From NCBI GenBank assembly GCA_002224055.1, contig AZLU01000329.1, positions 1 through 33,984 on the forward strand: DNA of 33,984 bases. The letters run 5' to 3'. The notes under the pieces are model-generated. The model saw only the letters and a program-made list of their open reading frames with translations. It did no database searches and was not told where the DNA came from. A program made the position numbers and the translations under genes. Origin of the DNA: Pezizomycotina sp. ARF18 (lineage: Eukaryota; Ascomycota). This document shows positions 24,008-30,352 of the stretch, in pieces (the stretch's first letter is position 1; every line of letters begins with the position of its first letter).

Positions 24008-25426
24008 CAGCGAGTAATTCTAAATCGGAAGGGAAGGCGGGGTAGTTATAGCGGTGACAGAACGGGAAAGTCGAGGAAGAACTCCACCGTGGATAACGTG
24101 CTGAGATATAACGCATCGGAGATAACATCGTCAATGATCTGGAAAGGGCATAGGATGGAATGAAGGTGGCTGTTTTCTTTTAGCCTACTTATTTGCGGAC
24201 ACAACGTATAACGAATCTTGATTCTTAGAGAAGCATCATTTCAAGTTCACGCTCCTGATGTTTGATAGATATATTCACTTTGCGATTGCCTTATGAGATT
24301 CACGTTTAATTAAATCTACGGTCTATAAAGAGCCTTACGATCTCTAAGAATAATATATCCCTTGAAACATTTTATACATATAAAACAAAATCAGGCAAGA
24401 ATACCCTGTTATAAATCCGAAGCTAAGATTAGGTTAAGATTCATGTCTTCGCGAAGGCCAACCTATGGAACATTCTCATAAAACGTCCCATAGAATAGAT
24501 GAGCCTGTAGGTCCAGGGCTAGACTATCGTATAGAGAAGGTATTAGCCTGAGGTACTGGGTATACAACTCGTGATTATAATGCGTCGTGATAATCCACTA
24601 AGCTATCGAAATATTAATCAGACTTTTTCTTTCTATTTTTTTTTTTTTTTTTTCTTTGGATAATACATGTATAAATCACCACATTGGGATCGAAGCATTC
24701 TGAAGCTAAGCTAAGCAGTACCTTTTGTCGCAGCGAAGAATAGCGCACTGAAGTACTTTAATTTTTGCTTTGTGTAACCTCAGCCCTGCAGTGTTTTCTC
24801 GACCCGTGTGTGTGTAACCTTGAACTCACTACCACTTACCCAACAGCTTGATCGTGCGATATCGTGGGATTTACAGTAATCTAGTAAAAAGCAGTGTATA
24901 GTTTTTTGTAATTATGAGGAAAAAAACTCTTTAACCTCTACCGGCTACAAGGTAGTTAGTTTGCCAAGAGGCCCAGGTAGAGAAAAAAAAATTTCAATCA
25001 ATCAATCAATCGATCATGTCAGATTATGCCATATTACCTTAGCAATAGAGATATTTTGTAGCAGTGCTTCTAGTGATCAGGATCGAATCGCTATTTCCTG
25101 AAGGTAACGCGGGCATGTACTTTAAGGTAGCTACCAAAAATCTGTAGGATGATCCGTGCGGTATAATGAAAGAATTTCATGCCAATCCTTTGCATTTTAG
25201 GAATCGATTAGGAAAAATGGTTTACCGTCCTTTGTCCCTTATCCTGATTTCTGACTTGCCCTAATATTGTCTATTATCATCGGGTGCTTTTGATTGATTC
25301 CAGAACGCTCAGGTCGTCTCACACCCCAGCAGGTGACTCCTTAGCCTATTTCAGCTATTGTTGCACTATCTTGACCGTTGCATAAAATAAAATTCTCCAT
25401 CTTGCGAAACTTCCGGTTGAACCCTG
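24008..25426. other. Intergenic between the 7TM gene and 5S copy A
   Basis: No gene seen. Contains a CAAT tetranucleotide repeat (about 24995-25010) and a T run near 24638-24653. Confidence 0.5.
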
Positions 25427-25438
25427 CCTTATATAGCA
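25427..25438 (+). promoter_or_regulatory. Upstream TATA element of 5S copy A
   Basis: CCTTATATAGCA sits about 27 bp before the first 5S base. The identical 12-mer is at the same distance in front of copy B, while the flanking bases differ. Neurospora 5S genes are known to need a TATA box at about this position in addition to internal elements, so a Pol III upstream promoter role is inferred. Confidence 0.75.
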
Positions 25439-25456: not shown

Positions 25457-25572
25457 ATCTACGAGCATAGAACGAGGAAATTTGGCATCCCGTCCGCTCT
25501 GCCTAAACAAGCCTCGTATCGGTCGACTAGTACTACGGTGGGTGACCATGTGGAATCCCGACTCTTGTAGAT
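25457..25572 (+). rRNA. 5S ribosomal RNA gene, copy A
   Basis: Part of the large ribosomal subunit; transcribed by RNA polymerase III. The first nine bases ATCTACGAG pair with the last nine CTTGTAGAT (helix I, one G-U). Helix II pairs ACGAGG (25472-25477) with CCTCGT (25512-25517). The conserved 5S core is present: CATCCCGTCCGCTCTGCC, AGTACTACGGTGGGTGACCA and GTGGAATCCC. It is a single copy away from any rDNA, as in Neurospora and many other filamentous ascomycetes. It is 116 nt versus 119 in copy B; two of the differences are single missing bases (for example GTGGAATCC versus GTGGGAATCC), consistent with the deletion errors seen elsewhere in the window. Confidence 0.92.
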
Positions 25573-25580
25573 TCTTTATT

Positions 25581-25661
<81 letters not shown>
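25573..25661 (+). terminator. Pol III terminator expanded into an 80-T tract
   Basis: After the 5S end comes TCTTTATTG and then uninterrupted T at 25582-25661. Pol III normally stops at about 4-7 T. Copy B has the same TCTTTAT-G lead-in followed by 18 T, so the position is conserved but the length is not. Confidence 0.7.
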
Positions 25662-26153
25662 CTTCTTTATTGGAATTGTTGTGTAAACTTTTTTTGTTTC
25701 ATCTACTTGATGAGCTGGTGATAGATAGACATTGTACATTGTGCTGTTTCCGATATTGCTATTGCAGCGGCGGTTTCGATATTCGAATTCGGAACCTTGC
25801 GAAATCTGGGTCATGGCAATTTGTTTGCGCTGGCAATTGCTACCTCTCGAGCTTGATGAAGGCCTTTCCTATTTTCGCCTAGGTCGTGAACGCCATTCAT
25901 CTTCGGAAGAAATGCCGTTTTCCGTAAGGAATATAGGTCTGGAGTATTAATAGATACACTCGATTACGAGCCGAGGATCAACATAGTCTCCTGTAATTCC
26001 TAACTCAATTACATGTTTTAATACAGAAGCGGCGATGTATTCCGTTCCCAACCGCCATAGCCCAGGACCGGCTTAAAAGGGAATTCGTAACCTCATTTTA
26101 TAGCCTCTACATGGCGATTGCAAAGCGAAAGTCTACCTTTTGGCTGCTTAGTC
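25662..26153. other. DNA right of 5S copy A, no gene supported
   Basis: Overlapping short plus-strand frames are open here, but none has protein-like character or splice support. Confidence 0.4.
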
Positions 26154-27317
26154 TTTAGCCCTTCCTCGTATTGGGTTCAAGAAATTGCCATTGCGGAGGC
26201 GTTTGAGGGACAAAATAGCTTTCCATTAGTCGAAGCGGACTTGCGGAATTCTTCTCAATGATTTTCTTAATTGCACATGGCTCTCTCACATGAAATTGAA
26301 CCTCAAGACGTTGACGTGATAGGGAAAGAATCTTCTGCATTGACGCCCGTTAAAACCGTCCAAGGATTACATTTTGTTTTGAGGTTAGTGCGCGGAAGTA
26401 GCCGCTTCTTGAAGAATTAGCCCACGCGTTTTGTCTTCACGCATCAGACTACGGGCCCGGACTCGGAACAGGGAAACGACCCGGCAGAGCTGAAAACGGA
26501 GATCAAAATTCTTTTGATTATTAAGTTAATCAAGGAATTACTGATACATTCTATAGATACTATCTGAAATTTGGAGTAGGTATTCACGACCGTGTATTGT
26601 AATACTAACGCAAGGCTCTGGTTCCTGACCTTTCGAACCGCCAATAAAGGATCGCCAGTAACAAGCGCGGCATGCATCGCATCGGAAAATATTATTCTCG
26701 TCACTGCTTGTGCATGGAGATGTTACTCTTTTTGGTATTTGGTTCCAAAATCGAGCATCAGGAGCTGTCGCTGTATAAGATACTTTGTATATTGTGGTTT
26801 TAAACAGCGGCGTTCGTTCACGTAACATGTATCGACTTCGTATACCACCATGTGCCTATTCCAATTCGACATTGCCAAAACATGTGAACGGAAAATGCTG
26901 TCGCTTTTTTTTTTTTTTCTAACTTCAAGTTTGTCATCACAGGATATGATTTGATTATGGTCTTCAGCCTTTTCAATTCACTGTAATAGGAATCTTTCTC
27001 GGTTGGACAGTTTATTCGGTTTTGCCATTAGAACTGCACTTCAACCCGGGCCGCTCGAATTGTGCATGATATACTCTGAACTTATGTTTTCCTGGCTGAA
27101 TTGAAGCCAGGAGAACAAAAATATTAGATCGCCGATCTTCATTGACAGCTTTCTCGAGCCCCGTAATTACCAAGTGAAAGCCTATCCACATTTCCTCAGC
27201 CTGACGTGTACTCGAAGAGGACTCAAGATCATCGGTATGAACAATACTCATGATCATTAGGTGACTCCAGGTGTCTTCGAACTCTCTGTCGGTTTTCTCT
27301 CGTCGGGTGTTTAGCAA
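26154..27317 (-). other. Possible degraded or frameshifted minus-strand coding stretch
   Basis: Several minus-strand segments look protein-like but cannot be joined with confidence: QAEEMWIGFHLVITGLEKAV and RSNIFVLLASIQPGKHKFRV (27200-27050), SYYSELKRLKTIIKSYPVMT (about 26970), a Cys-containing stretch around 26700, and a short closed ORF at 26340-26155 starting MQKILSLSRQRLEVQFHVRE. No family is recognised. It could be one broken gene, remnants, or chance. Confidence 0.25.
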
Positions 27318-27429
27318 AGGAATTCCCTGTATCTAATCCTTCTACAGAGTACGAGTGAACCATAGCTCCTGATATTTCCCGCGCACGTCCAAGCAACTAC
27401 CCACACCTCAGAACCTGCTCAAAGCAAGA

Positions 27430-27679
27430 ATGAGCGACCCGGACCTCCTTACGCCAGCTTTAACCAGAACATGCTGGTCGTAAAGGTCGAGCCTACCGCA
27501 AAGTCCATCGATCTAAAATATAGTCAAGATCCCCTCCCAATGACGACCCAAACGTACAATTACCAGACCGGAAAAACAAACCAAGCTGTGATAGTCTGGA
27601 CGATAATAGTCCGTCTGGCTTGAGCTCACGGGTTCAGAATCAATAAAATACAATCCGGACGCCACGCTGTACGTTACTG
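27430..27679 (+). CDS. Unrecognised coding fragment, beta-rich, probable first exon
   Basis: Not recognised. The ATG at 27430 gives MSD; after an apparent -1 slip near 27440 the frame reads GPPYASFNQNMLVVKVEPTA, then KSIDLKYSQDPLPMTTQTYN and TGKTNQAVIV. A further slip near 27595-27620 leads to ELTGSESIKYNPDATLYVTG, which ends exactly at a plausible donor GTAGGT (27680). Alternating hydrophobic residues suggest beta strands. No signal peptide is visible. It may belong with the coding exons at 28.9-29.7 kb on the same strand, but 1.2 kb of poorly coding sequence separates them. Confidence 0.4.
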
Positions 27680-28420
27680 GTAGGTTAAGATTTTTTTTTT
27701 CTTTTTGCTATTTACGTAGATCTCCTGTTGCTTTCCATTTCCCTTTTCTTGCTTTTTGAGGTTGCATTTAAGAATGTTACCTGTAGTGTTAATCTACCCT
27801 GGTTGGTTTTGGGGCCGTTTGATGAAGACGTTGGGTGGGTAGTGTATGTCAGAATCACCTTGGTCAAAAGGAAGCGAGGTTTATGCAAATTGCGGGAGCT
27901 ATTTAGTTTCTAATGTATCCATATAGTTATCGTGTTTATGTGTGTAATGCTGAAGATGACGAAAATCTCTGAGCCCACATATAACCCGATTAACTTTTCG
28001 ATATCGAATTGAAGTCATGATTTGATATCACGTTTGTGAGTGCCAAGTTATACCGTCTCGAAAGCCTAATAATAATTGGGTTATTTTCCGTTAGAAGACC
28101 TTCTATTCTAATATCGCTCTGAATTTATATACATAACAGGATTGGAAAACGCCCAAACTAAATTTACCCGTGGTATTTGTCTATTTGGTAATAGTTGTAA
28201 TTCAACACAGCTTAGAACTATATTTTCGGTCTTCTTCGGGATTTGACTTAGTGTCTAAATAGTGTAAAATATTTCGAATCAGCCTGCATATGCGCATGCT
28301 TGTATGTATATTGCGGGCTTAACTAACCATTAATATCACTACCGCCTCGATACAATTTGTTCGTCTTGAAGTCTAACATTCTAGACCCAGCCCTCTAACC
28401 GGTTGCTCTCTGCTAAAGCG

Positions 28421-28910
28421 TCAAAACGAAATCATTGAGCAAGAGAATGAGCAATTGAGAAACGAACAACGAAGCATTGCTGAAGCCTTAGTGGCCACTA
28501 TGTGGAAGCAGATTGTGTGATTGGCGGCTAAAATTGTTCCTTCAACGTTATCCATAACACCTCTTGATACTGGACCTAAAGATCTCCTTGACCTCCATCG
28601 CGCAAACAAGCCAAACTTGAAATCCAGGAATCAGCCGCTCTGGCTTGTTGAGCGTGAGGGTAGAGTAGCTTCAATTTGCTCTATATTGCATTGCATAAAC
28701 TCACATAGGATTGTCCTTCAGCTTGATTTTGTATTCACTGCTTTATCGGACTCTCGCTGGCGTAATACACCTTCAGAACGTCAGATATGCTCTACTACCA
28801 GGATATTTGACAAACAAGAAGGAGAACTGCAGTACTTGCGTCAACTTGTTGAACGGCGAGTACATTCTAGTAGGCACGAAAAAACATATAAACCCCTTTC
28901 CGCCCCCTAG
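28421..28910 (+). other. Helical, possibly coding fragments upstream of the 29 kb gene
   Basis: One frame reads KRQNEIIEQENEQLRNEQRS, a charged coiled-coil-like stretch, to a stop at 28518, then resumes with PLDTGPKDLLDLHRANK and, further on, FDKQEGELQYLRQLVERRV. The helix character differs from the beta-like exons downstream, so this may be another gene or a remnant. No family recognised. Confidence 0.25.
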
Positions 28911-28933
28911 TCCTCGAACTACTCTTACGACAA

Positions 28934-29728
28934 CATCAGCACATCTAAGAAGCCAGCTACTAACACCGCTATACCAAACCCCGTCTCAAATCTATACAAA
29001 CCTTCAACCTCTTTGCCAACCTCACCTATACACTTCATATACCGTAGCTATGGTTCCGTCAAGTGGGATTCCAACACATCCACCTTACCGTCAACTCCAT
29101 TGCGAAATCTGTTGACTTCGGTCCAGGCGTATGGGTAACCGGCGTCTACAATAACGTCACAACGGAGACAAACACTGCTACGGTCGTTGACTCTTCAACA
29201 ATACGCATAAGATCAAGTACTCAAGCGGAGACAACGTCCCTTCCCATCTGGCGGGGACGTGAACATACAGGGTAAGCTTGCTTTAATCTTATAGATAAAC
29301 ACTTTTTTAGAATTATAGCAAGCCAACTAAAGGCTTGACAACACAATTTATATATATTCTCACAAAAAAAAATTTTTTTTTTAAAAACATTAGTGGTTAC
29401 TGACTTTAATATGTATATATTTACTTTGTAGGTCCTGCCGATAACAAGGAATGGGCTTTTACGATCGTTTCAGCGATTAATCCCAGATTGCGGCGACTTT
29501 CAAGGCGACTTAACTCCTGTTCAGGGCAAAATCTACTGGTACGTCTACAGATTGCCTATTTCGATCTCTTCAATACGTTGTCATTCGTTAAATACTAATA
29601 ATCTTCTCGAATGTGAAGTCTTAATCAACACCTAGTCGAGTTAACAGCATTTCCTAGTCCATTATTCTGAAGACAATGCGGATATCCAAGCCTCGTTTCC
29701 TGAAGAGCTTCCGGGCGCCGACCTTTAA
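28934..29728 (+). CDS. Unrecognised spliced gene (3' part), Thr/Asn-rich beta-like protein
   Basis: Not recognised; the start was not found and the left edge is approximate. Coding segments in order are NLFANLTYTLHI (about 29010); HIHLTVNSIAKSVDFGPGVW with VTGVYNNVTTETNTATVVDS; then, after a -1 slip near 29185, FNNTHKIKYSSGDNVPSHLA, and after another in a G run near 29255, GGDVNIQ. The donor GTAAGC at 29271-29272 and a TAG acceptor at about 29432 join this in phase to GPADNKEWAFTIVSAINP. A slip then leads to DCGDFQGDLTPVQGKIYW, a donor GTACGT near 29544, and a last piece HYSEDNADIQASFPEELPGA ending at TAA 29726-29728. The phase-true splice across 29271-29432 is good evidence that the gene is real. 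Upstream (28430-28900) holds helical, possibly coding fragments that could not be joined. Confidence 0.45.
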
Positions 29729-30134
29729 GTTGCAGGCGGAAGAAATAAGATAATACATGAACAATCACTAGAGAGACAGATACTATTAGTCAAGATACCT
29801 ACAATTCGTGCTATCACAATGGTTTATTCTCCAAATATGTAATTTGAAGGATGTATTGTACAGACTGTGTATATATGTCCGTCCGCTCCTTTAACGTTGT
29901 CATGGACGCTAGCTAACAACTTTCAATCTAATAAATATCGATATTTGTCATAAAACTGGGAATGTGGCATCGTCGTCGTACTACTATCTACGCCTCCCTT
30001 TACAACTGCAGAGAGATTGAGCTAGTATTCAAGTATAAAATAAAAGAAAATGAGAATATTAGATTATCATTTATATGTCCTAATGTTCGAGCCAAAAGGA
30101 CCAGAAGTTTAAGGATTGTAAAAAAAAGAAAGAC

Positions 30135-30152
30135 AAAAAAAAAAAAAAAAAA
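30135..30152 (-). terminator. Pol III T-run terminator of 5S copy B
   Basis: Minus strand reads 18 T starting 8 bases after the 5S end, with a second shorter T run beyond an interruption (plus strand A run at 30121-30127). Confidence 0.75.
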
Positions 30153-30160
30153 CGATAAAG

Positions 30161-30279
30161 ATCTACAAGAGTCGGGATTCCCACATGGTCACCCACCGTA
30201 GTACTAGTCGACCGATATGAAGCTTATGTAAGGCAGAGCGGACGGGATGCCCAGTTGTCTTCATTCTATGCTCGTAGAT
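30161..30279 (-). rRNA. 5S ribosomal RNA gene, copy B
   Basis: Read on the minus strand, ATCTACGAG at the 5' end pairs with CTTGTAGAT at the 3' end (helix I). Helix II pairs ATGAAG (30264-30259) with CTTCAT (30222-30217). The core CATCCCGTCCGCTCTGCC, TCGGTCGACTAGTACTACGG and GTGGGTGACCATGTGGGAAT is shared with copy A. The length of 119 nt is normal. Helix II differs from copy A by paired changes that keep the stem, so both copies appear to be under selection for structure. It faces copy A across 4.6 kb. Confidence 0.93.
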
Positions 30280-30298: not shown

Positions 30299-30310
30299 TG
30301 CTATATAAGG
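30299..30310 (-). promoter_or_regulatory. Upstream TATA element of 5S copy B
   Basis: On the minus strand CCTTATATAGCA lies about 28 bp upstream of the first 5S base, matching the element before copy A exactly in sequence and nearly in spacing. Confidence 0.75.
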
Positions 30311-30352
30311 TGTAGTGAAAATTTTCATACAAGGGTTATTTAATTAATAATT

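Follow-up and report, generated by a model that had tools for sequence, protein, structure and literature searches.

The stretch of DNA analysed here (the window: all 33,984 nucleotides of contig C329, AZLU01000329.1, in the 46.4 Mb, 408-contig assembly GCA_002224055.1 of Pezizomycotina sp. ARF18) carries two 5S ribosomal RNA (rRNA) genes, copy A and copy B, whose types differ in the stems of the RNA by substitutions that change both partners of a pair together. With a probability of roughly 0.9, the two are members of a dispersed fungal 5S family, consisting of RNA polymerase III (Pol III) genes that undergo birth and death and in which changes to the stems are compensated. At gathering score, an Rfam search of the window found these two genes and nothing else, and both exceed the 38 bits set for RF00001 (scores in Table 1), in agreement with the initial annotation of this DNA. 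The copies are convergent, with 4.6 kb between them. The arms of helix II that had been quoted for each copy are exact in the sequence, and helix I and the core of the internal promoter are identical in the two, as had been stated; the same applies to alignment columns 65-100, within which the internal promoter is expected.

The paired nature of the differences is clearest when copy B is set against a complete type-A gene, C209. Ten positions differ: six of them make up three changed pairs, the other four are at unpaired positions, and one-sided changes of a pair do not occur. Two of the changed pairs, 17-64 and 20-61, belong to helix II; the third, 28-54 in outer helix III (T-A in type A, G-C in copy B), depends on a register chosen by the analyst, the Rfam alignment pairing neighbouring columns instead. 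When ten changes are placed at random, three complete pairs with no half pair arise with p = 3 × 10-5 (33 pairs). With 28-54 set aside (31 pairs), at least two complete pairs with no half pair have p ~ 0.00014, while at least two complete pairs, the other changes being left free, have p ~ 0.012.

Searches of the assembly with the DNA of each copy gave the same set of at least 18 5S places, which is a lower bound; a genome-wide Rfam search listed 15. These places, the collection proposed in the initial annotation, are dispersed and comprise 14 complete copies, spread over eight contigs, and four that are broken or cut after base 92-100. Neurospora has several 5S types, and at least two had been proposed for this genome; the complete copies bear this out, falling into type A (six copies), an intermediate A' (one), type B (four) and three more diverged sequences. 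Among the type-A copies, C209, C96a and C96b show no difference across 119 bases, and copy A, C36_181 and C36_185 depart from them by deletions only. Similarly, only insertions or deletions (indels) separate C36_186 and C19 from copy B, and C36_173881 is of type B with three substitutions. The diverged copies C39, C18 and C17 have 8, 9 and 22 substitutions, respectively, relative to the nearer type, and have in common a change of helix IV pair 85-98. The A' copy, C36:174386, differs from type A by one deletion and a double change of pair 17-64, pair 20-61 being unaltered; by these differences, it is a stepwise intermediate from type A towards type B.

The flanks of the 5S copies are mostly unrelated, with few exceptions. 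In the C36 cluster, the copies have a block of some 159 bases upstream in common, 88% identical (other matches between flanks on C36 come from overlapping loci), and the last 41 bases 5' of the gene are 85% alike in copy A and C209. Six of the 5S places lie inside 24 kb (C36:173881-197825), some with common upstream blocks, and form a local 5S cluster. Upstream of copy A, at approximately 24898-24991 of the window, there is also a 98-base stretch that matches, at 92% identity and in opposite orientation, DNA on the downstream side of the C18 copy; it is possibly a dispersed repeat.

The initial annotation had suggested testing for further paired substitutions genome-wide, and this was done over 33 named pairs in the 14 complete copies, which give 12 distinct rows. 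As the structure was named by the analyst from these same sequences and the Rfam drawing, the percentage paired is somewhat favoured. Standard pairs are found in 384 of 387 cells (shuffle mean 92.6%), with helices I-V kept, such that the unpaired substitutions typical of pseudogenes, which had been named as a finding that would speak against folded products, were not found in these copies. Both sides have changed in 10 of the 33 pairs (shuffle mean 3.9) and 23 cells are doubly changed (shuffle mean 6.1); none of 500 shuffles reaches the observed value for paired cells, doubly changed pairs or doubly changed cells. When the partners are slid by one to three columns, 32-47% of cells are paired and between zero and three pairs are doubly changed. 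Helix I is invariant among the complete copies. Of the four broken copies, C164 has an unpaired C-A at 17-64, as would be expected of a copy no longer under selection. Three observations weigh in the opposite direction. The number of further pair types, 12, is matched by 3 of the 500 shuffles (mean 8.9); five of the ten doubly changed pairs (27-55, 29-48, 31-46, 72-111 and 89-96) are each supported by a single distinct sequence; and minimum-energy folds of four single copies barely beat those of their shuffles (z from -0.5 to -1.5), folding of single copies by this means being uninformative.

This distribution of changes would be expected if 5S copies diverge, duplicate and disappear through birth and death and unpaired changes are purged by selection for the RNA fold, since stem changes would then persist mainly as compensated pairs. 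The two window copies had been described as giving direct covariation evidence that both make a folded RNA. That their differences covary with the fold is upheld; the part concerning current production was overstated, as covariation of this kind shows past selection for folding in the ancestors of the copies, not present expression. The family is a case of compensatory evolution of 5S rRNA within one genome, with an intermediate step preserved.

Paired differences might also result from mutational decay of C to T, dependent on CpG or resembling repeat-induced point mutation, rather than from selection, because complementary arms offer the same context and both would be struck. The two helix II differences are indeed C-G versus T-A exchanges, and pair 17-64 covers two CpG sites in type A. 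However, type A has nine CpG sites; seven persist in type B, and the missing two are the ones opposite each other. Pair 20-61 is not CpG, transversions are included in pairs 28-54, 71-112 and 85-98, and no complete copy has a one-sided change at 17-64 or 20-61. On this check of the nine sites decay is a weak candidate for the helix II pairs, and as an account of the paired differences it is very improbable.

Gene conversion among the dispersed copies may instead have spread the types partly as blocks, in place of repeated compensatory change. All four combinations of states occur for 17-64 with 85-98, and at least four for 71-112 with 85-98, which calls for double changes that recurred or for segments that were exchanged. 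Yet conversion would have to move both sides every time, as the partners of 17-64 and 71-112 are 47 and 41 columns apart, and it accounts for the distribution alone, the initial double changes still having to arise. A part played by conversion is regarded as possible but less likely than not.

Compared with C209, C96a and C96b, which are identical, copy A has no substitutions but is short of three single bases: one A of AAAA between helices II and III, one C of CCC in the 3' strand of helix III, and one G of GGG at 98-100. Such losses could mean that copy A, or another copy with missing bases, is a decaying pseudogene, with one of the two window copies live. Its score of 78.4 bits is below the 83.0-84.7 of the three complete type-A copies, and excerpts of two reports (PMC10462631, PMC5555474) give pseudogene fractions of 18-83% for 5S in filamentous fungi. 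By contrast, the lack of any substitution, the restriction of the losses to homopolymers and the presence of both a TATA-like box and a T-run at copy A argue against decay. In the six near-type copies that carry indels, all ten indels fall within runs of at least two identical bases, and such runs hold 34-39% of positions.

Frame changes are also frequent in HSP70 genes of the assembly. In two of these genes, on C49 and C70 (out of matches on seven contigs, and excluding one overlapping row on C70, 64616-64837), neighbouring profile matches meet at 12 junctions, and the frame changes at all 12. At ten of them the matches overlap or are at most 31 bases apart, which is too tight for introns; of the remaining two, one spans 52 bases, with 18 profile positions missing, and one spans 91 bases and could be an intron. 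The homopolymer-only losses and the HSP70 frame changes together suggest that the missing bases of copy A are probably assembly errors rather than pseudogene lesions. Some results do not fit this neatly. Only 9 of 13 indels in C39, C18, C36_173881 and C17 are in runs, four being outside; C36_186 and C19 carry the same one-base deletion at position 34, which could be real; and there is a 449-codon open frame beside the C7 copy, with longer ones elsewhere, so that indel errors must be uneven across the assembly. It is nonetheless unlikely that copy A is a pseudogene, and this is rejected as the principal view. Single missing bases are hence poor marks of a pseudogene in this assembly, and indel errors are not expected to be a source of the matched-pair substitutions on which the covariation rests.

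Copies A and B probably each constitute a separate Pol III gene, with an upstream TATA-like box, an internal promoter and a T-run as terminator. A TATAT-like match at approximately -25 to -34 is present at 16 of the 18 5S places, both window copies included; with the strings used, none was found near -30 at C19 and C17. Neurospora 5S genes also require a TATA box. A run of four or more T begins no more than 23 bases past the gene in all 14 complete copies. The first such run behind copy A is 80 T long, and behind the other 13 complete copies it is 6-25 long. These boxes and runs support Pol III transcription without proving it, and both types would presumably be transcribed in this manner and enter ribosomes.

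The motif AAAATTTT, found upstream of copy B, is present within 120 bases upstream of 10 of the 18 5S places, as against 18 of 1247 background pieces, which came from the window and from 13 stretches surrounding other 5S places, 300 bases about each 5S gene being excluded. Ranked by p, it comes first of the 1688 8-mers present, although the C36-cluster copies are not independent in this count. The same letters in reversed order, TTTTAAAA, occur at none of the 18 5S places and in nine of the 1247 background pieces. Within 110 bases upstream, AAAATTTT accompanies four of four complete type-B and two of six complete type-A copies, a split noticed post hoc and not significant alone; it is also upstream of the A' copy, one of the three diverged copies and two of the four broken copies. 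That the types are separately controlled, through a AAAATTTT sited upstream of type-B genes and missing from most type-A genes, is quite improbable. Were it the case, the fungus could alter the 5S make-up of its ribosomes.

Two wider roles for AAAATTTT were considered. The ribosome-production element (RRPE) of yeast served as the model for one of these, which is not supported, as the motif is present in two of six upstream stretches of about 1.1-1.3 kb (genes with Brix and Nop domain matches) versus 50 of 250 background windows, each 1200 bases long. A general Pol III element is unlikely, with the motif no more than 250 bases upstream in one of 20 transfer RNA (tRNA) stretches; these are 20 of the 21 tRNA rows outside contig C50, the two on C257 being identical. 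Most of the tRNA rows (33 of 54) fall on contig C50, where they share a strand and are spread over the interval 5-231 kb; this contig is probably a very large mitochondrial genome.

At four of the 18 5S places the gene ends or is interrupted after base 92-100, and in this they resemble the truncated copies of birth-and-death families. Three of them, C77, C7 and C164, keep the first 92 bases of 5S and continue into related DNA that opens with a palindrome. In C164 the remainder of the gene (92-119) and a T-run return 311 bases later, which indicates that the gene was split by an insertion. This is the sole bounded insert; its palindrome, at the start, is of about 90 bp, and a 93-base piece of it also sits inverted upstream of the C77 copy. 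The upstream flanks of C77, C7 and C164 show no match to one another, and no 3' piece of 5S is present within about 5 kb downstream of C77 and C7. An ungapped pattern search of the assembly, allowing up to three mismatches, did not find the 3' ends of C77, C7 or the fourth broken copy, C36:197732 (type B to about base 100, other DNA beyond); an end bearing an indel would escape this search, which overlooks one of the 14 complete copies (C36_185, with one base deleted). No element protein was recognised by eye among the open frames listed beside C77 and C7. The simplest reading of the three breaks at base 92 is a 5S-directed mobile element, which is not proven. Literature searches, which were not aimed at proving absence, returned no fungal 5S-targeting element by title.

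Ten of the 38 open frames listed for the window were tried against Pfam and four gave matches: a fungal rhodopsin domain, Tom37 with a glutathione S-transferase domain, ribosomal protein S5 and inositol monophosphatase. Such a content would suit a filamentous ascomycete. The features of the window and the broken copies with related DNA are located in Table 1.

Table 1. Positions of the two 5S rRNA genes, their associated signals, and three broken 5S copies located elsewhere in the assembly
Feature	Sequence	Position	Strand	Basis or remark
5S rRNA gene copy A (type A)	window	25457-25573; 25457-25572 by helix I end	+	Rfam RF00001, 78.4 bits
Copy A helix II 5' arm, ACGAGG	window	25472-25477	+	sequence, pair count
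Copy A helix II 3' arm, CCTCGT	window	25512-25517	+	sequence, pair count
TATA-like element, 27 bases 5' of copy A	window	25430-25435	+	sequence, string match
80-T run after copy A, probable Pol III terminator	window	25582-25661	+	length possibly affected by assembly
5S rRNA gene copy B (type B)	window	30160-30279; 30161-30279 by helix I end	-	Rfam RF00001, 79.7 bits
Copy B helix II 5' arm, ATGAAG	window	30264-30259	-	sequence, pair count
Copy B helix II 3' arm, CTTCAT	window	30222-30217	-	sequence, pair count
TATA-like element upstream of copy B	window	30302-30307	-	sequence, string match
18-T run after copy B, probable Pol III terminator	window	30135-30152	-	
AAAATTTT motif upstream of copy B	window	30318-30325	-	enriched 5' of 5S places
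Broken copy C164	stretch L052	5146-4717	-	leaves 5S after base 92
Broken copy C77	stretch L050	from 4979		leaves 5S after base 92
Broken copy C7	stretch L051	from 4955		leaves 5S after base 92

The broken copies have counterparts in other systems. Aspergillus nidulans has 5S pseudogenes with a common foreign 3' block, and C77, C7 and C164, in which 92 bases are kept and related DNA follows, are like them by description; unlike them, the block in C164 is an insertion, with the missing 3' end found 311 bases on. In excerpts of the respective reports, Dada-5S of fish is described as a mobile element that inserts into 5S genes (PMC8869645) and Mutsu of zebrafish is named as another (PMC3706591). 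Several 5S genes here have related DNA joined at one and the same base, a likeness to both, again by description, whereas the sole bounded insert here is 311 bp and starts with the palindrome of about 90 bp.

For the family as a whole, the nearest parallels are in the filamentous ascomycetes, for which the consulted parts of PMC10462631 and PMC5555474 describe several 5S types and many broken copies per genome. As several types and pseudogenes have already been reported for filamentous fungi, the two-type pattern in this genome is ordinary and its novelty low; what it adds is a located set of copies usable for testing the expression of 5S types. The number of copies, at least 18, is fewer than the 50-200 quoted for fungi in the part of PMC5555474 consulted. 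In its truncated copies and apparent birth and death the family is like those outlined in the same excerpts (PMC10462631, PMC5555474), and in having dispersed single genes of several types it is like Neurospora crassa and other filamentous ascomycetes (Selker et al. 1981; Rooney and Ward 2005, as quoted or listed in PMC10462631 and PMC5555474).

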